64,000 bases of DNA from Anaerolineae bacterium (lineage in GTDB: Bacteria; Chloroflexota; Anaerolineae; Aggregatilineales; Phototrophicaceae), in assembly GCA_022843745.1 (NCBI GenBank), contig JALHNB010000011.1:1-64000 (forward strand). Reading direction: 5' to 3'. Made by a program: the position numbers and the translations under genes. The notes beneath the pieces are model-generated. The model was not told the origin of the DNA. It made no database searches and saw only the letters and a program-made list of their open reading frames with translations. This document shows, in pieces, positions 2,104-51,097 of the stretch. The first letter of the stretch is position 1; each line of letters begins with the position of its first letter.

Positions 2104-2793
2104 TTAGTCGATCAACTCCAACAACTCGTGCAGGTGGGCGATCTCGTAGGTGATCGGTAAATCGGTGGGGCGGGGTGTGCTCATTGGGTTGTACCAGCAC
2201 GTGTCGATGCCATAATCCACGCCGCCCCGCATATCCGCGCTGAGGCTGTCGCCGATAATCAGGACATCGCTTTTGGCGGGATTGCCGATCCGCTCAAAGG
2301 CCGCATCAAAATAGGCGGCTTTCGGCTTGGCTGCGCCGATTTCCTCGGAAATAATCAACTCCGCAATGTGATCGCGGATCAGTGAACGCGCTAAACGGTT
2401 ACGCTGGACTTTTTGCAAGCCGTTGGTCACGATGGCGAGACGGGAAGTTTTGTGTAGTGTGTCGATCACGTCGTAAGCGCCGTCGATCATTTCGGCGCAG
2501 TTTCCCAGGTGTTCGATGTAAGCGTCGCTCATGTGGTTCGCGGAACCCGCCATCTGAAGCGCTTCCAGCAGCAGTTCAAAGCGGCGCACTTTTAAAAGCT
2601 CAGACGTGATCTCGCGTTTTTCGAGTGCTTGCCAGAGCTGGTGATTGATGCCCTGATAAACGTCTAAATGTTGATCCTGGTAATCCAGACTCAGCGACAG
2701 GAAGGCGTTTTTGAGCGCGATTTTTTCGGCGTAGTTGAAGTCGAAAAGTGTGCCATCGGCATCGAAGCACAGCCAGGAGTAATGTTTTTTCAC
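2104..2793 (-). CDS. yjjG: YjjG-like HAD hydrolase (5'-nucleotidase/phosphatase)
   Basis: A haloacid dehalogenase-superfamily phosphatase, subfamily IA. Motif I is FDADGTLFDF near residue 10, with the two catalytic aspartates. Motif II is IVTNGLQ near residue 122, followed by the YjjG-type segment QKVQRNRLARSLIRDHI. Motif III is EEIGAAKP (Lys near 152), and motif IV is LIIGDSLSADMRGG. Order, spacing and length (229 aa) match YjjG, known in E. coli as a nucleotidase acting on non-canonical pyrimidine nucleoside monophosphates; the exact substrate here is inferred. The start is GTG (2791-2793) with only a weak ribosome-binding site. It stands alone on the minus strand, converging on the decayed DeoR copy. 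Confidence 0.9.
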   Translation of the reverse strand: MKKHYSWLCFDADGTLFDFNYAEKIALKNAFLSLSLDYQDQHLDVYQGINHQLWQALEKREITSELLKVRRFELLLEALQMAGSANHMSDAYIEHLGNCAEMIDGAYDVIDTLHKTSRLAIVTNGLQKVQRNRLARSLIRDHIAELIISEEIGAAKPKAAYFDAAFERIGNPAKSDVLIIGDSLSADMRGGVDYGIDTCWYNPMSTPRPTDLPITYEIAHLHELLELID

Positions 2794-3099
2794 AGTTGTC
2801 TCGCTTTAGGTGTTCGCAAATCCAGCCTATTTTAATCGCGGCGGGCTTCGATCAGATAGGTGCGAGATTCGAAGGCCAGTTCGCCGCGCAAGGCGACGAT
2901 GTGAGGATGGGGCAGAGCGGCTTTATAGGATTTCGACAGGACGACCCGCCGGGATCGTCCCTACGTGGATGTGCGGTTTACATTGGTGATTTGAAGGCAG
3001 GAAATGGGAGAGCGCACCGCTATGCGCCCCTACGAGGATCTTCACGATTGAGATGAGTTCAAACTGGCAATAGGTTGCAAATTGGATTGCCGGAAAATT
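2794..3099. repeat. Gene-free gap with two short palindromes
   Basis: About 300 bases without a gene. Two members of the dispersed palindrome family are visible: GGACGACCCGCCGGGATCGTCC plus CTACG at about 2939-2965, and AGCGCACCGCTATGCGCCCC plus TACGA at 3011-3035. No promoter or terminator is obvious. Confidence 0.6.
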
Positions 3100-3687
3100 C
3101 TAGGGCGGCAAAGCCTCACACGCAGTGCCATTGTTATCCGCGTCTAGCAAATCTTCATCGATACTGCACTGCTGTAAATGGGCGTTTGCAGCGGACTGAC
3201 TCGTAAAATCGCTGCAATTTAAATCATCAATGCCGTTACAGGTGTAGATCGAGGCGGGCGGCGGAACACTGGTTAACGGCTGCGGTGTGCCAAATATTGC
3301 CGTCGGGAAGGGTGCACCTGTCACGATGAGCGATGGCCCGACCAGATAAGGCCGTATGTCGATGGGCGCGGGGCTGGGCGCACCGGGCGTGAACAGCCGT
3401 CCGGGTTCGAGCGTGGTTAGCAGGGAACTGTGGATATAGCCAACCTGTCCCTCAAATGTCAGCTCAAACCACGAGGTCGAGCCGTTCCACTTTTGCCCCT
3501 CAAGGCTGCGCGACACCTGGACGGAGCGATTGCCTTGTATCGCGCCGAGCAGGTCACAAAATGTCGAGGCACAACTGCGCACACGGGCTGCGCGGAGCGT
3601 GTAGTAGGTGCTGTTTTGCGCCGTCGCGGGCAATATCAGCAGCAGCACGGCGGTGAATAAAAGAACCGGGATAATTCGTTTCATCAT
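3100..3687 (-). CDS. Secreted SH3b protein with C-terminal Excalibur calcium-binding domain
   Basis: A secreted or surface protein of 195 aa. Residues 1-24 are a signal peptide (positively charged start, hydrophobic core, cleavage after ATAQ). Residues ~28-92 form a bacterial SH3 domain (YYTLRAARVRSC, GQVGYIHSS), usually a cell-wall or ligand-binding module. The final ~45 residues carry an Excalibur-type domain: CNGIDDLNC and the hallmark D-x-D-x-D-G-x-x-C-E, here LDADNNGTACE, which binds calcium in related extracellular proteins. A proline-rich linker joins the two. No catalytic domain is present. The gene is isolated, and the ligand of the SH3 part is unknown. Confidence 0.8.
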   Translation of the reverse strand: MMKRIIPVLLFTAVLLLILPATAQNSTYYTLRAARVRSCASTFCDLLGAIQGNRSVQVSRSLEGQKWNGSTSWFELTFEGQVGYIHSSLLTTLEPGRLFTPGAPSPAPIDIRPYLVGPSLIVTGAPFPTAIFGTPQPLTSVPPPASIYTCNGIDDLNCSDFTSQSAANAHLQQCSIDEDLLDADNNGTACEALPP

Positions 3688-45407: not shown

Positions 45408-46157
45408 TTGACTGACGAGATCGTTTTATCCACTGCGGACGAAATCGCTAACCAGCTCCAGGAAACATCCCCTGGCCCGCGCGAGAAAATTAACCTGATG
45501 GTTGAATATGCGGGCGTGGATTTTGTGAATCGGATGATGGAAGAAACCCTCGAAATCTGTAATCTTGGCGGGATGCTGGTTGATAATGGTACACGTCGCC
45601 GTACATTGGGAGGGATATTTTTCTTCCTGGCGAAACAGCAGATGACCGATGAAGTGCGACGGAAGGTTTTTCCGCCGCTGTATCCACCCAAGGAACGTCG
45701 GCCTGGATCGGATAAACCGCAAACACCCCCTCCCCCGTCACTGCCAGAATTGATCTGGGAGGAACGCGAGGAGTTGTTAAAAGTGCTGTTGTCGGAGTCG
45801 GGCGCTGCTCAGTCGAATAAAGTCACGCTGACAGGCCGACCCCAGCGTGTTGATAATCGCAAAGATCATGTGACGTTCCGCATCACAGAAGATGGCAAAC
45901 AGCCAGCAATGCCGCGTGGTGTGCCGCGTGTGCTGGCCGGATTGGGATCGACTCCCTATACGATATACGCCGCGCCCAAACAGTGGAAAAAGGTAGAAGC
46001 TGCCTTGAGCGTTCCAGATGATGTTTTGATTATCGAAGGGACATGCGCTTATGACCCTCGTATACCCGGCATCGCGGTCTATGCCAGCACGCTGACGACA
46101 CGTGCCTTGCAGCGCGAACGCTTCGCAGAACAAAAACAGATCAATATCTCCGAATGA
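45408..46157 (+). CDS. Protein with PHAX-type RNA-binding domain
   Basis: A soluble protein of 249 aa. Residues ~10-90 match the PHAX RNA-binding domain (Pfam PF10258, known from the eukaryotic U snRNA export adaptor): INLMVEYAGVDFVNRMMEET, then GGMLVDNGTRRRTLGGIFFF with the Gly-Gly and Arg cluster that contact RNA, and DEVRRKVFP. A proline-rich linker (residues ~91-112) leads to a second ~135-residue domain with no family I recognise (KVTLTGRPQRVDNRKDHVTF, RVLAGLGSTPYTIYAAPKQW). No ATG fits; TTG 45408 is the only start upstream of the domain. The role is likely RNA binding of some structured bacterial RNA. Confidence 0.8.
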   Translation: MTDEIVLSTADEIANQLQETSPGPREKINLMVEYAGVDFVNRMMEETLEICNLGGMLVDNGTRRRTLGGIFFFLAKQQMTDEVRRKVFPPLYPPKERRPGSDKPQTPPPPSLPELIWEEREELLKVLLSESGAAQSNKVTLTGRPQRVDNRKDHVTFRITEDGKQPAMPRGVPRVLAGLGSTPYTIYAAPKQWKKVEAALSVPDDVLIIEGTCAYDPRIPGIAVYASTLTTRALQRERFAEQKQINISE

Positions 46158-46328: not shown

Positions 46329-47642
46329 ATGAGCATTATACAAACACTTCTGGATCGTCTGAGCAGCCGCGAGGCAAAAATTGGCATCGTGGGGCTGGGT
46401 TACGTTGGCCTGCCGCTGGCTGTCGAATTTGCCGAGGCTGGATTCTCGGTCATCGGGTTGGATGTCACCGCCGATAAAGTGAATCAACTCAACGCCGGGA
46501 AAAGCTATATCCCGGATGTTCCGACAGAGCAGATCAAGCGGCTGGTGGACAACGGGAAGCTGTGCGCGACGACGAGCTATGACGATCTGCGCGACTCGGA
46601 CGCGATCAGCATATGTGTGCCGACACCGCTGCGCAAAACCAAAGACCCGGATATGTCTTATGTCATTCAGGCAGTCGATGGTGTGGCACGTATCTCGCAC
46701 GCCGGTCTGCTGGTCGTTCTGGAAAGCACTACCTATCCCGGCACGACTGAAGAAATTATCGTCCCGCGTCTGGTCAATAACGGCTTTAGTATTGGCGAGG
46801 ATGTGTTTGTCGCGTTTTCGCCGGAGCGCATCGACCCCGGCAACGCGCATTATGGCGTTCGCAATACGCCCAAAGTGGTCGGCGGCGTGACCCCTGCCTG
46901 TACGGAAGCGGTCAAGGCGCTGTATGGTACAGCCGTCGATACCATCGTTCCTGTCTCCTCCCCTACCGTCGCCGAGATGACGAAACTGCTGGAAAATACT
47001 TTCCGCGCGGTGAATATCGGTCTCGTCAACGAACTGGCGCTGATGTGTGATCGCCTCAAAATTGACGTGTGGGAAGTGATCGACGCCGCGAAAACCAAGC
47101 CGTTCGGATTTATGCCCTTTTATCCGGGGCCAGGTTTAGGCGGACACTGCATCCCGGTTGACCCGCATTATCTGAGCTGGAAGCTGAAAACGCTGAATTA
47201 CACGGCGCGTTTTATCGAACTTGCCAGCGAAATTAACACGTCGATGCCGCTGTATGTGCTGGACAAAATTATGAACGGCCTCAACGACGAGGGCAAAGCG
47301 GTACGCGGCTCAAAAATCGTCGTGCTGGGGGTGGCATTCAAGCGCAATGTCGATGACGTGCGCGAAAGTCCGGCGCTGGATGTGCTGACGCTGCTCCACG
47401 AAAAAGGCGCGGATGTCACCTATCACGACTCGTATGTGCCGACGTTGCGGCTCGAAGGCGAAATGACGATGACTTCGACACCCTACTCCGATGCTTTATT
47501 GGAAAGTGCCGACTGCGTGGTCATCATCACCGACCACAGCACTTTTGATTGGCAGCATGTCGTCGATCACAGCCGCTTGATTATTGATACGCGCCACGCG
47601 ACAGCTAAGAAAAGCGGGAAGGCGCGGGTGATTTCGATTTAA
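46329..47642 (+). CDS. UDP-N-acetylglucosamine/glucose-type nucleotide-sugar dehydrogenase (WbpA-like)
   Basis: An NAD-dependent four-electron UDP-sugar 6-dehydrogenase (437 aa). N-terminal Rossmann motif GIVGLGYVGLPLAVEFAEAG, central FSPERIDPGN, the catalytic-cysteine region GPGLGGHCIPVDPHYLSW and the C-terminal domain VLGVAFKRNVDDVRESPALD are in the correct order. It resembles WbpA/WecC-type enzymes, which make UDP-GlcNAcA or UDP-ManNAcA for surface polysaccharides. ATG 46329 begins where similarity begins; 46299 is in frame but less likely. The epimerase at 49310 could act in the same pathway. Confidence 0.93.
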   Translation: MSIIQTLLDRLSSREAKIGIVGLGYVGLPLAVEFAEAGFSVIGLDVTADKVNQLNAGKSYIPDVPTEQIKRLVDNGKLCATTSYDDLRDSDAISICVPTPLRKTKDPDMSYVIQAVDGVARISHAGLLVVLESTTYPGTTEEIIVPRLVNNGFSIGEDVFVAFSPERIDPGNAHYGVRNTPKVVGGVTPACTEAVKALYGTAVDTIVPVSSPTVAEMTKLLENTFRAVNIGLVNELALMCDRLKIDVWEVIDAAKTKPFGFMPFYPGPGLGGHCIPVDPHYLSWKLKTLNYTARFIELASEINTSMPLYVLDKIMNGLNDEGKAVRGSKIVVLGVAFKRNVDDVRESPALDVLTLLHEKGADVTYHDSYVPTLRLEGEMTMTSTPYSDALLESADCVVIITDHSTFDWQHVVDHSRLIIDTRHATAKKSGKARVISI

Positions 47643-47750
47643 GCGGGTCAGCGTCTCAGCGTCTCAGCTAGTCAGCTAAAGGGCGAAAATCATGTGTTTT
47701 GACGCAGGGTTGGTTCAGCTTTATACTGATGGATAGATAGTTGAGGAGAT

Positions 47751-47963
47751 ATGATCTTGAACGAGCCAGATGAACGGATCGAATTGACTGACGATCAGCT
47801 TGACGAACTCGCTGAGAAAGAATACCTGGAATACCTGAAGAAAATTGGTGCAATTCGTGAGGATGGCACGATTGATCGCTCTAAAATTAAATACCATCCT
47901 GCGCAAACTCTGGAAGAATTGGAGGCGCTGCTGTGGGCGAACGACGATCACACAGATGGTTAA
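47751..47963 (+). CDS. Antitoxin-like partner of a RelE-family toxin
   Basis: A small acidic protein of 70 aa with a high content of Glu/Asp and a helical pattern (LTDDQLDELAEKEYLEYLKKIG, then PAQTLEELEALLWANDD). It overlaps the next gene by 31 bases, the usual gene order of a type II antitoxin placed before its toxin. I do not recognise the DNA-binding family. Start ATG 47751, preceded by TTGAGGAGATATG (GAGGAG). Confidence 0.7.
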   Translation: MILNEPDERIELTDDQLDELAEKEYLEYLKKIGAIREDGTIDRSKIKYHPAQTLEELEALLWANDDHTDG

Positions 47964-48247
47964 TCGAGTGGTCTGAACAATCCCTTGAAGCGTTGGTAAA
48001 ACTGTCGTCTAAAGACCGGATGGCAGTTTTTGATTCTGTCGAACATCTGGCGAAAGCTGAAAACCCTTACAATGTGCCAGGCGTAAAGAAGCTTAAAGAT
48101 GTGCGGCTCGAAAATATGCGCCGGATTCGTGCTGGTGACTTTCGTATTATCTTCTGGCTCGACACAGGTGAAATCGTCCACCTGGAATTTACGTATAAAG
48201 GCAAGTTAAAGATTGATGGCATCTTTATTCATCATACGGGATATTGA
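47933..48247 (+). CDS. RelE/ParE-family toxin
   Basis: A type II toxin-antitoxin toxin, 104 aa, RelE/ParE fold. Recognisable: IEWSEQSLEALVKLSSKDR, LKDVRLENMRRIRAGDFRII, and EFTYKGKLKIDGIFIHH. The typical active residues of mRNA-cleaving RelE members are a basic set plus Arg near the end (here RRIRAGDFRI). It begins at GTG 47933 inside the antitoxin gene. Expected to block translation by mRNA cleavage or to target gyrase, depending on the subfamily; this is not determinable here. Confidence 0.85.
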   Translation: MGERRSHRWLIEWSEQSLEALVKLSSKDRMAVFDSVEHLAKAENPYNVPGVKKLKDVRLENMRRIRAGDFRIIFWLDTGEIVHLEFTYKGKLKIDGIFIHHTGY

Positions 48248-48345
48248 TATCACCGATATCGACCACTCTTTGGGGTCTGTTTACAGGGTCAGAGATTCGC
48301 GATACAGTGGTCATAAGCATGAGTTGAGCGAAAAGGATTGACCGT

Positions 48346-48882
48346 ATGGCGCACTCCAACAGTGTTCGAGCCGAATCTGCATCTCTGAATCGCCGCGAAT
48401 TTCTCTATTACGCTTTGGGCGGCTCGATGGTATTGGCGGCGGGCGGCGCGGGAGTTGGCTTGGTGCGGTACATCGCACCTTGGTATCCCGATCAGTATGT
48501 GACGCTTAAATCCGACGAATTACCAAGTCCAAATTCGGCGCAATTATATGACTACACCCGTTTTTACATTGCTCGTGGCGCAGATGGTTTAGGTATGTTT
48601 CGCATTGCGTGTACTTACAAAGGCTGTATTGTCAAATGGGTAAAAGTGGTTTCTCAATTCCAATGCCCATGTTGTGGTTCAAAATTTGAGATTGATGGGA
48701 CTTTTGTTGAAGGTCCTGCACGTCGTAGCCTGGATCGCTATTTCACAGATGTCACATTTGTCGATGGCACGACAGCCACAAGCAACGAAAATGGCGATCC
48801 GATTCCCCTCCTGGGTCGCGAAATCGCCAGTGTGACCGTCGATACGCGAAGGCTCATCCCCGGCCCGGCGCGAGAAACGTAG
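48346..48882 (+). CDS. Rieske-fold iron-sulfur protein with substituted ligands
   Basis: A secreted, Tat-type protein (178 aa). NRREFLYYALGG (residues 15-26) is a twin-arginine signal, followed by a transmembrane anchor. The Rieske fold is clear (GPARRSLDRY, the hinge before it, and the spacing), but the cluster motifs are C89-T-Y91-K-G-C94 and C107-P-C-C110, whereas classical Rieske proteins have CTHxGC and CPCHGS. Both histidine ligands are thus replaced, by Tyr and by Cys, while the 15-residue spacing between motifs is unchanged. No cytochrome b gene lies next to it. Confidence 0.85.
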   Translation: MAHSNSVRAESASLNRREFLYYALGGSMVLAAGGAGVGLVRYIAPWYPDQYVTLKSDELPSPNSAQLYDYTRFYIARGADGLGMFRIACTYKGCIVKWVKVVSQFQCPCCGSKFEIDGTFVEGPARRSLDRYFTDVTFVDGTTATSNENGDPIPLLGREIASVTVDTRRLIPGPARET

Positions 48883-48916
48883 CTTTAGACGATTCGGATA
48901 CGGAGGAAATTGTTCA

Positions 48917-49213
48917 ATGGATAACTTAGCTGAAATCGTCAAAAAAGTTGTATTTGCATATGCTTCTAAAGGGCCAAATATCCGCACGTTTGCGCTGGCA
49001 AACGAGGATGAAAAGGTCTACGCGGTGAATATTGTGGATACAAAGGTGCATCTGCGTCCGGCTGGTGTCATGGTCATCGCGCGGGTGGAAGGCGATACGG
49101 TCATTATCGAAGACGATTTGACGGATCGCCCACTGGTGGATGCCCTGGTTGCGGCAGGCATTCCCCGTGAAAAAATTGTCTTCGCCGACGAAATGGAAAC
49201 GCAGCCGGAATAA
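48917..49213 (+). CDS. XisI-family protein
   Basis: A small soluble protein of 98 aa of the XisI family (named after the fdxN-element excision control factor of heterocystous cyanobacteria). Pattern: VKKVVFAYASKGPN, VYAVNIVDTKVHLRPAGVMV, TDRPLVDALVAAGIPREKIVF, the last being the family hallmark. The usual partner XisH is absent nearby. GGAGG lies ~10 bases ahead of ATG 48917. Role here unknown; members are widespread in Chloroflexota and cyanobacteria without an excisable element. Confidence 0.85.
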   Translation: MDNLAEIVKKVVFAYASKGPNIRTFALANEDEKVYAVNIVDTKVHLRPAGVMVIARVEGDTVIIEDDLTDRPLVDALVAAGIPREKIVFADEMETQPE

Positions 49214-49309
49214 CGCGCGTCAGCTACGCATTGGGCAGTCGTCATTTGCAGCGCGGCGTATTTCAGGTAGGATTAGCGTCGCATATCTCGCAAAGAGGAT
49301 TTTTTACTG

Positions 49310-50287
49310 ATGTCCAATTCCCCCCTCACCTACCTCGTCACTGGCGGCGCGGGTTTTATCGGCTCCCATCTGGCTGAAGCGCTGCTCAAGGCCGGACATC
49401 GCGTCCTGGCGATTGATAACCTCTCCACCGGACGGCAAAAAAATATCGACCATTTGTACGACGAGCCTAATTTTCAATTCGTCCGTGCCAGCATCACCGA
49501 TTCGATTGTCATGGATCGCCTCGCGTCACAGTCGGATGTGATCGTACACTTGGCGGCGGCGGTGGGTGTGCGTCTGGTGGTCGAACATCCGGTACAGACG
49601 ATTGAAACGAATGTCATGGGGACGGAGAAAGTGTTGCAATCGGCGCTGCGCTACGGGCTGCGCGTCCTCCTCGCCAGCACGTCCGAAGTTTACGGCAAGG
49701 GCAGCAAAATCCCATTCAGCGAGGATGACGACGTTCTCCTGGGGCCAACCAGCAAAAGCCGCTGGGGATATGCCGCCAGCAAAATGGTCGATGAATTTCT
49801 GGGGCTGGCATATCACCTTGAATATGGGCTGCCTGTGACACCGTTTCGGCTGTTTAATACCGTTGGCGCACGCCAGACCGGACAGTATGGCATGGTGATT
49901 CCGCGCTTTGTGCGGCAGGCCTTGAACAACGAGACGATCACGGTTTACAGCGACGGTAAGATGCAGCGGACTTTTTGCGATGTGCGCGATTCAGTACGCG
50001 CAATTATTGGTTTATCACAACTTCCCACCGCTGCCGGACAGGTCTACAACATCGGCGGTACAGACGAGATTACTATGCGGGGGCTAGCCGAGCGCGTGAA
50101 AATGATGTCGGACAGCAATTCCGAAATTATCCACATCCCCTATGAAGAGGCCTACGCACCGGGCTTTGAGGATATGCAGCGTCGCGTACCAAGTATCGAG
50201 CGCATTGGCACACAGCTTGGGTGGGAACCAAGTTTCTCGCTGGACGAAATTTTGCAGAGCGTGATTGATTATGAGCGCGGGAATTAG
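49310..50287 (+). CDS. UDP-glucose 4-epimerase/NAD-dependent sugar epimerase
   Basis: An extended short-chain dehydrogenase of the sugar-epimerase type (325 aa). NAD-binding [19 protein letters not shown] at residues 11-29, the catalytic Tyr-Lys pair in [11 protein letters not shown] near residue 158, and STSEVYGKG upstream. [16 protein letters not shown] and GQVYNIGG are family features. Typical reactions include conversion of UDP-Glc to UDP-Gal or of UDP-GlcA; the exact substrate cannot be told. Could work with the UDP-sugar dehydrogenase at 46329-47642. Confidence 0.92.
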
Positions 50288-50474: not shown

Positions 50475-50993
50475 CTATACGTCAAAGGTGCTGTTGTTTT
50501 TGACCTTACTCCACTGCGACATGACTTCTTTTCCAAGCATACCATCTTTGTTGATCGGCCTGGATTTAATTTGAAACGCGCCATATTGCAGCGTGATTTC
50601 TTCGATCAATGTGTCGTCGCCCTGGGAGATGGCCTGTTGGATTTTATTGATCATCACCAGCCTACAGGCGATGCTGTAAATTGGGCCAGGTGATTTGGCC
50701 CCACCTGCCGTGAAAAATTCAAATGTCACGGTGTCGTAGCGCGATCCTGAAACCAGCGCATATGCCAGCGCAGGCGTTTGCGCGTCAATGGCTTTCGAAA
50801 TCACAATGGGTTCGAATGTCGCTTTTCCAGACCCTGCCCCACCGGACGTTCCGCCGATGGTGGTTTGGTTTTCCAGCCCCATCAAAAATGACTCAAGCCG
50901 GATGCCCTTGGATCGTGGGTCGAGTGGGCTGTCGGGGATCGCGATCTGGGCATGACTTGGCCCGCTGAACGTCGCAAAAATGTCGATAGCCAT
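50475..50993 (-). CDS. hcp: Hcp-like (type VI secretion tube) protein, orphan
   Basis: A protein of 172 aa resembling Hcp, the ring-forming tube protein of type VI secretion. It begins MAIDIFATFSG, followed by an extended beta-barrel pattern, GSGKATFEPIVISKAIDAQTP, VTFEFFTAGGAKSPGPIYSI and EEITLQYGAFQIKSRPINKD, which correspond in order to Hcp strands. No VgrG, VipA/B, ClpV or baseplate genes occur in the window, so this is an orphan. ATG 50993 has AAGGA eight bases upstream; TTG at 50999 is less likely. In Chloroflexota such orphans are common; the role may be extracellular, not T6SS. Confidence 0.82.
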   Translation of the reverse strand: MAIDIFATFSGPSHAQIAIPDSPLDPRSKGIRLESFLMGLENQTTIGGTSGGAGSGKATFEPIVISKAIDAQTPALAYALVSGSRYDTVTFEFFTAGGAKSPGPIYSIACRLVMINKIQQAISQGDDTLIEEITLQYGAFQIKSRPINKDGMLGKEVMSQWSKVKNNSTFDV

Positions 50994-51097
50994 GTTCAAA
51001 TTCCTTTTCGATAAGATTATTCTTTGAACAGCTTATCAGGATTTCGGCTTCCCGGCGAATAGCGATGGTTTAGAGACGCCTTAGCGATGCTTTTATA

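Follow-up and report, generated by a model that had tools for sequence, protein, structure and literature searches.

What defines a Rieske protein is a pair of His ligands, responsible for the high potential of its cluster and for the coupling of electron and proton transfer in the Q cycle. Together with two Cys ligands these His form the motifs CxH and CxxH. Among Rieske proteins are the PetC/QcrA proteins of bc and b6f complexes, whose genes lie next to that of cytochrome b. The window, the whole stretch of DNA analysed here (64,000 nucleotides of contig JALHNB010000011.1 of an Anaerolineae bacterium, Chloroflexota), encodes a relative of these proteins in which both His positions have changed, the first to Tyr and the second to Cys (Tyr/Cys). 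With PetC/QcrA (the canonical copy of the same genome, G000:C3, L039/L080) it shares a Tat-type N-terminal anchor, full length including the C-terminal tail, the disulfide Cys, the cluster Cys and the GPA loop. In contrast to these proteins, it has no His ligands, carries Lys for Leu92 and Arg for Pro126, has lost the FGG hinge and is encoded at a locus with no adjoining cytochrome b.

Exchange of the ligands has been studied by mutagenesis in the ARF protein of Sulfolobus solfataricus. According to a review by the group working on ARF, replacement of the second His by Cys (H64C) yielded a new low-potential [2Fe-2S] cluster with three Cys and one His as ligands, while replacement of the first His by Cys failed and a double Cys mutant was largely impaired (PMC2946596). 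The same review describes a rubredoxin-like Fe(Cys)4 site obtained by a three-residue change in which Cys took the place of the second His and was also introduced one residue further in the first loop (PMC2946596). Cys at the second His position is what these variants share with the window protein. They differ in being laboratory mutants, in having His, Cys or Ile and, as far as described there, never Tyr at the first position, and in the absence of the disulfide Cys from ARF (PMC2946596). The CPCCG of the window protein also fits the CPxCG knuckle of rubredoxins and zinc-binding proteins. Of the two CxxC knuckles of rubredoxins and zinc ribbons it has the second (CPCC), whereas its first loop reads CxxxxC and its homology is to Rieske proteins. 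No natural Rieske protein with Tyr/Cys ligands was found in the open literature (subscription journals fell mostly outside the search), and the literature searched held no precedent for Tyr ligating a Rieske [2Fe-2S] cluster.

A PetC/QcrA-type paralogue at an orphan locus

The features of the locus are as follows.

47933..48247, + strand: ParE/RelE-like ORF upstream (PF05016, 17.7 bits, sub-threshold at a cut-off of 23); no respiratory operon
48333..48337, + strand: AAGGA, located 8 bases upstream of the ATG and, by eye, a possible ribosome-binding site
48346..48882, + strand: Rieske paralogue of PetC/QcrA type, 178 aa and diverged (open reading frame; Pfam matches marginal or below threshold; 40% identity to the canonical copy, G000:C3)
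48391..48396, + strand: twin arginine R16R17 (NRREFLYY) of a Tat-type signal, kept; invariant in 65 aligned relatives
48610..48627, + strand: CTYKGC, with C89 and C94 kept, His91 changed to Tyr and Leu92 to Lys
48664..48681, + strand: CPCCGS, with C107 and C109 kept and His110 changed to Cys; reads as a CPxCG knuckle
48712..48723, + strand: GPAR, with Arg at position 126, against Pro (GPAP) in 64/65 relatives
48917..49213, + strand: XisI-like protein, starting 34 bases past the Rieske stop codon (PF08869, 32.9 bits, cut-off 25)

The Rieske-type ORF begins with ATG, is free of internal stops and contains the motif pair CTYKGC-12-CPCCGS. The codons, described as unambiguous in the initial annotation, were re-read from the DNA and are indeed TAC for Y91 (48616-48618) and TGT for C89 (48610-48612), C94 (48625-48627), C109 (48670-48672) and C110 (48673-48675); C107 is TGC (48664-48666). 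Its further observations also hold: Y91 and C107 are spaced by 15 residues, as His and Cys usually are in Rieske proteins, and both His ligands are gone while five Cys (89, 94, 107, 109 and 110) are left, so that the ligand positions are occupied by C89, Y91, C107 and C110. The twin-arginine signal and membrane anchor that it had reported can be recognized in R16R17, E18 and F19, positions that are 98-100% conserved in the family, and in the hydrophobic stretch that is kept. The Pfam anchor models TM_PetC (PetC anchor) and UCR_Fe-S_N (Tat-type) match below threshold.

The Pfam Rieske model PF00355 is matched marginally, at E=9.1e-4 with 19.5 bits, below the cut-off of 20.3, and the NCBIfam petC models give 57.7 of 250 bits, far under their cut-off. 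Comparison with relatives makes the Rieske homology clear, identity to canonical PetC-type proteins reaching 46% across about 155-170 residues. The best PDB sequence matches are Rieske proteins, mostly of bc/b6f type, and four PDB alignments place His opposite the Tyr and the second Cys of the window protein. The AlphaFold model (pLDDT 48) is too poor to use for the fold. Taken together, the sequence comparisons show the gene to be a full-length paralogue, of exported type, of the bc-complex Rieske protein. The host genome (7.96 Mb) has one close paralogue of it, a canonical gene (G000:C3:3558-4049) that adjoins genes for cytochrome b (PF13631, PF00033) and cytochrome c (PF00034). The window gene has no cytochrome b gene beside it, and its wider neighbours are sugar-nucleotide and VWA/DUF58 genes. 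Co-transcription with the XisI-like gene is possible. Rfam gave no match at 47500-49400, and scans for promoters and terminators revealed no excess over shuffled sequences. Elsewhere in the window, the bacterial protein encoded at 45408-46157 carries the RNA-binding domain PHAX (PF10258, 60.2 bits, cut-off 25), which takes its name from a eukaryotic RNA export adapter, and 50475-50999 (- strand) encodes an Hcp-like protein (PF05638, 59.3 bits, cut-off 23.5).

Divergence, decay and distribution

Conservation was scored at the 42 positions that are at least 95% conserved in 65 aligned relatives. In the window protein 16 of these have changed, three of them by deletion, and 26 are kept. The changes comprise H91Y, L92K, H110C and P126R, six hinge positions (PRF..G.FGG), W24 and A26, plus four more. 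Kept are RREF, C89, T90, G93, C94, W98, F105, C107, P108, C109, G111 and S112, as well as G118, GPA (Gly123-Pro124-Ala125) and R127. Among the lost positions are presumably those which in bc complexes, to judge by the bovine Rieske protein, bind the outer iron, contact cytochrome b and cover the cluster. The C-terminal tail (133-155) shows no unusual divergence, its median identity to the family being 0.39, against 0.40 for the canonical copy. The window protein sits on a long branch (2.01). Codons 61-140 (48526-48765) have a GC3 of 0.25-0.35, against 0.50-0.75 elsewhere in the gene; the canonical copy lacks such a dip, which could stem from local drift or from conversion out of an AT-rich source.

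An error of sequencing or assembly at the two codons was considered and rejected, since the divergence extends over the whole gene and the residue pair recurs elsewhere. Moreover, His to Cys takes two base changes, so the Cys is no one-step accident; with the gene-wide divergence this rules out a simple base error. The survival of the frame was examined by mutating the canonical gene neutrally until an equal number of invariant positions was lost. Of 2000 runs, 4.3% ended without a stop in the frame; with indels admitted at an assumed rate of 1 per 15 substitutions the fraction was about 5e-5. A gene that died long ago is thereby made improbable, whereas recent inactivation is not, and no particular function gains support.

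The survey of homologues counted matches at E 1e-3 or better, distinctness being judged on the last 90 residues. Canonical motifs were found in 162 of the 167 distinct homologues, the exceptions being the window protein, L237, L235 and two Patescibacteria proteins. The initial annotation had proposed to see whether CxYxxC...CxCC is conserved in homologues, which it is not. It had also taken canonical homologues as a sign of error, a rule that fails here because 16 of the 42 invariant positions have changed in an intact ORF and the swap recurs elsewhere; its two options for the protein, another metal centre or loss of the cluster, both remain live. The canonical copy in the genome, the orphan locus, the convergence and the changes at further invariant positions were not part of it. 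In the window's own family 96 of 98 genomes match at 1e-20. Among their 101 matched rows, every one of which was examined, the Tyr/Cys form occurs in the window only, hence in one of the 98 genomes. Within the class 128 of 298 genomes match at 1e-15, and among the loci examined (30 from the matches listed, plus rows from other searches) Tyr/Cys was again confined to the window; a Tyr/Cys clade around the window protein, sought in these 98 and 298 genomes, was thus rejected. Phages gave no match. In plasmids 51 records matched, each below 60% identity and none reaching 80% coverage. Viral contigs gave four matches to the DNA pattern, none in a Rieske frame, and none in a profile search.

Two of the non-canonical relatives belong to the window's family. 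L237 (116-676; G1067:C192) is an intact, full-length second PetC paralogue of its genome from which both His and both disulfide Cys have been lost (CVRDRT...CPHSG), and it is flanked by genes for an acyl-CoA dehydrogenase and a luciferase-like monooxygenase. Like the window protein it is an orphan without ligands, full-length and marked by GPARR, with Arg at position 126; unlike it, L237 has also lost the disulfide Cys. A sister relationship was rejected: L237 is 34% identical to the window protein and up to 48% to canonical PetC, to which it is thus nearer, so the losses were independent. From its sequence L237 is an independent candidate for a cluster-free Rieske protein. L235 (G1064:C268) is a stop-ridden PetC copy with a damaged second motif, the sole match at 1e-20 in its genome, and is likely a pseudogene.

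Tyr/Cys domains in Patescibacteria

The exact DNA pattern CxYxxC-12-CPCCG was scanned over genome_contigs (84,980 species, one genome each). The scan covers Tyr/Cys alone, with one spacing and CPCCG, and the recurrence it reveals comes without a background rate. It returned 16 stretches, six of them in frame in ORFs of at least 40 aa. Two of these six are Rieske proteins, matching the window protein at E 1.2e-12 and 3.5e-12, and the other four resemble Cys-rich low-complexity frames. The Rieske pair, P0001 (L100, Ca. Daviesbacteria) and P0002 (L088, bacterium isolate DBS2-4.bin71), comes from bacteria with tiny genomes and belongs to one order. The two proteins are 57-58% identical to each other and share the site CTYxGC-12-CPCCGS with the window protein. 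They differ from it in their size of 85-86 aa, the absence of an anchor and their Rieske lineage, and their genes each overlap by 4 bases the end of a gene for a DAO-family FAD oxidoreductase. PF00355 is matched above its cut-off, with 43.7 and 46.6 bits. The predicted structure of P0001 (pLDDT 87, from a three-row alignment) has Rieske folds as its top matches; against 8hn2_A, Foldseek gave a TMq of 0.77 and VIA-align a Z of 13.8 and an rmsd of 2.4 over 84 residues. For the pair, pN is 0.24 against a saturated pS of 0.80 (0.26 and 0.75 for their DAO genes), values that fit purifying selection.

Relatives of the pair occur in 21 of 379 genomes of the phylum sample, 29 of 373 of the class sample and 3 of 45 of the order sample. 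Among the Patescibacteria rows examined (21/21 for the phylum, 3/3 for the order and 30/32 for the class, L177 in part, the two class rows left out being weak matches of G822) Tyr/Cys was limited to P0001 and P0002. The canonical relatives, with CTHxGC/CPCHGS, include DAO-Rieske fusions (7/7 long ORFs tested), and others, such as L119-L121, sit in short frames. In the class of the organism that harbours P0001, L161 (1468-1779) encodes a Rieske ferredoxin in which Tyr replaces only the first His (CTYDGC...CTLHN); judged by eye, its gene apparently lies between SufD-like and SufS-like genes.

A tree of 49 rows and 79 columns, with the motif columns excluded, was used for the relationship between the window protein and this pair. 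It held 25 random PetC-type proteins, the host's canonical copy, the window protein and 22 Patescibacteria rows; omitted were L061 and L062, for their long branches, and L123, L125, L152 and L158, shortened by domain parsing. A clade of the window protein with the pair was rejected (p-AU 0.009, the window branch being long). Outside the motifs the window protein is identical to the pair at 11/68 and 10/65 positions, against 41% to its best PetC relative. Shared ancestry of these Tyr/Cys domains was therefore rejected, short-tract conversion of the motif aside, and the swap arose at least twice. The residue that follows the first ligand position has become charged in the two lineages alike: Leu in 65/65 relatives is Lys in the window protein, and Met, Leu or Ala in 20/20 Patescibacteria relatives is Glu in the pair. 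The residue before C107 has also changed in both, weak evidence as this position varies in canonical relatives (Glu in 51/65). The window protein is thus real and free of error, and its motif, unconserved in close kin, is convergent with that of a distant pair. Being recurrent, the swap may point to a functional metal site of another kind rather than to decay.

The putative metal site and its alternatives

In the natural Tyr/Cys proteins Cys stands at the second position, not the first, and the extra Cys in the first loop is absent. They thereby follow the rule that the ARF review gives for the exchange of the second His, and on this ground a three-Cys [2Fe-2S] cluster completed by Tyr or solvent is favoured. 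It is tentatively proposed, at somewhat less than an even chance, that the window protein holds such a low-potential site and is no longer a quinol oxidase. The protein would have left the bc complex while keeping a metal centre. Fe1 would have its usual Rieske ligands, here C89 and C107, and Fe2 would be bound by C110 and either Tyr91 or solvent, the identity of this fourth ligand being a guess. The C94-C109 disulfide is predicted to be kept. Without the imidazoles the high potential would be gone, as would the reaction with quinol that is coupled to protons, leaving a low-potential one-electron carrier or redox sensor at the outer face of the membrane. The pattern of retention favours a metal site, as all five Cys and the surrounding motif residues survive, in contrast to both His, Leu92, Pro126 and the FGG hinge. 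The Tyr/Cys pair of the two Patescibacteria proteins, their low pN and the Rieske fold modelled for P0001, the charged neighbour in each lineage and the two base changes that Cys requires weigh on the same side. Counted against it are the His retained in ARF H64C, the failure to find a precedent for Tyr as ligand in the literature searched, the poor model of the window protein, the absence of a background rate for the recurrence, the persistence of a ligand-less copy with an intact ORF in L237, the single family genome with Tyr/Cys and the dip in GC3.

A wider claim would be that in nature a Rieske site of two Cys and two His has at least twice become a [2Fe-2S] site of three Cys and Tyr, in an exported paralogue of bc type and, separately, in the partner of a flavin oxidoreductase. 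This is considered unlikely at present. If true, it would add a cluster type in which a phenolate serves as ligand and the potential is strongly lowered, with no remaining part in the Q cycle, and the natural, recurrent escape would show evolutionary retuning of a Rieske scaffold. The site can be tested on a small soluble domain, the Patescibacteria version being 85 aa. Annotation that relies on CxH...CxxH overlooks proteins of this kind, among which the window protein is best regarded as a variant Rieske protein of unproven function.

The same protein could be a paralogue without cluster, its fold held by the C94-C109 disulfide and serving as a structural or binding module free of metal. The loss of both His, the Rieske score just under the Pfam cut-off and the independent case of L237, likewise full-length, orphan and with Arg at position 126, all agree with this. 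L237, however, lost its disulfide Cys, whereas in the window protein no Cys is missing and a new one stands at a ligand position, a gain shared with the Patescibacteria pair, where pN lies far below pS. A cluster-free paralogue is held to be somewhat unlikely. There is only a small chance that the gene is a recent pseudogene, a redundant PetC duplicate gathering changes and open by luck. The long branch, the number of invariant positions changed, the AT-rich third positions in the core, the lack of respiratory neighbours, the restriction to one family genome and the presence of a stop-ridden copy (L235) in the family are what such a duplicate would display. The rarity of stop-free frames in the neutral runs speaks against it, as do the sites involved, the lost ones including ligand, tip and hinge positions and the retained ones all Cys.

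Rather unlikely, finally, is a mononuclear site of rubredoxin or zinc-ribbon type, in which the C107-P-C-C110-G knuckle would bind one Fe or Zn with C89 and either C94 or Tyr91. The Fe(Cys)4 site engineered in ARF (PMC2946596) offers a parallel; P0001 has a sub-threshold zinc-finger match (PF14569, 22.6 bits, cut-off 27.1) and shares 34% identity with a viral locus, L110, whose CPYC...CPCCG looks zinc-ribbon-like by eye. In all three Tyr/Cys proteins, however, the first loop is CxxxxC and not CxxC, and C109, which is kept in all three, would be deprived of its disulfide partner if C94 were used. The three-Cys [2Fe-2S] site with Tyr or solvent remains the favoured reading.

L110 was the only viral locus found with P0001; it had no Pfam match at 1e-5 and is not Rieske-like by eye. 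It lies at about 2779-3192 of its viral contig and reads CPYC...CPCCGSRF, its likeness to P0001 being confined to the surroundings of the CPCCG knuckle.
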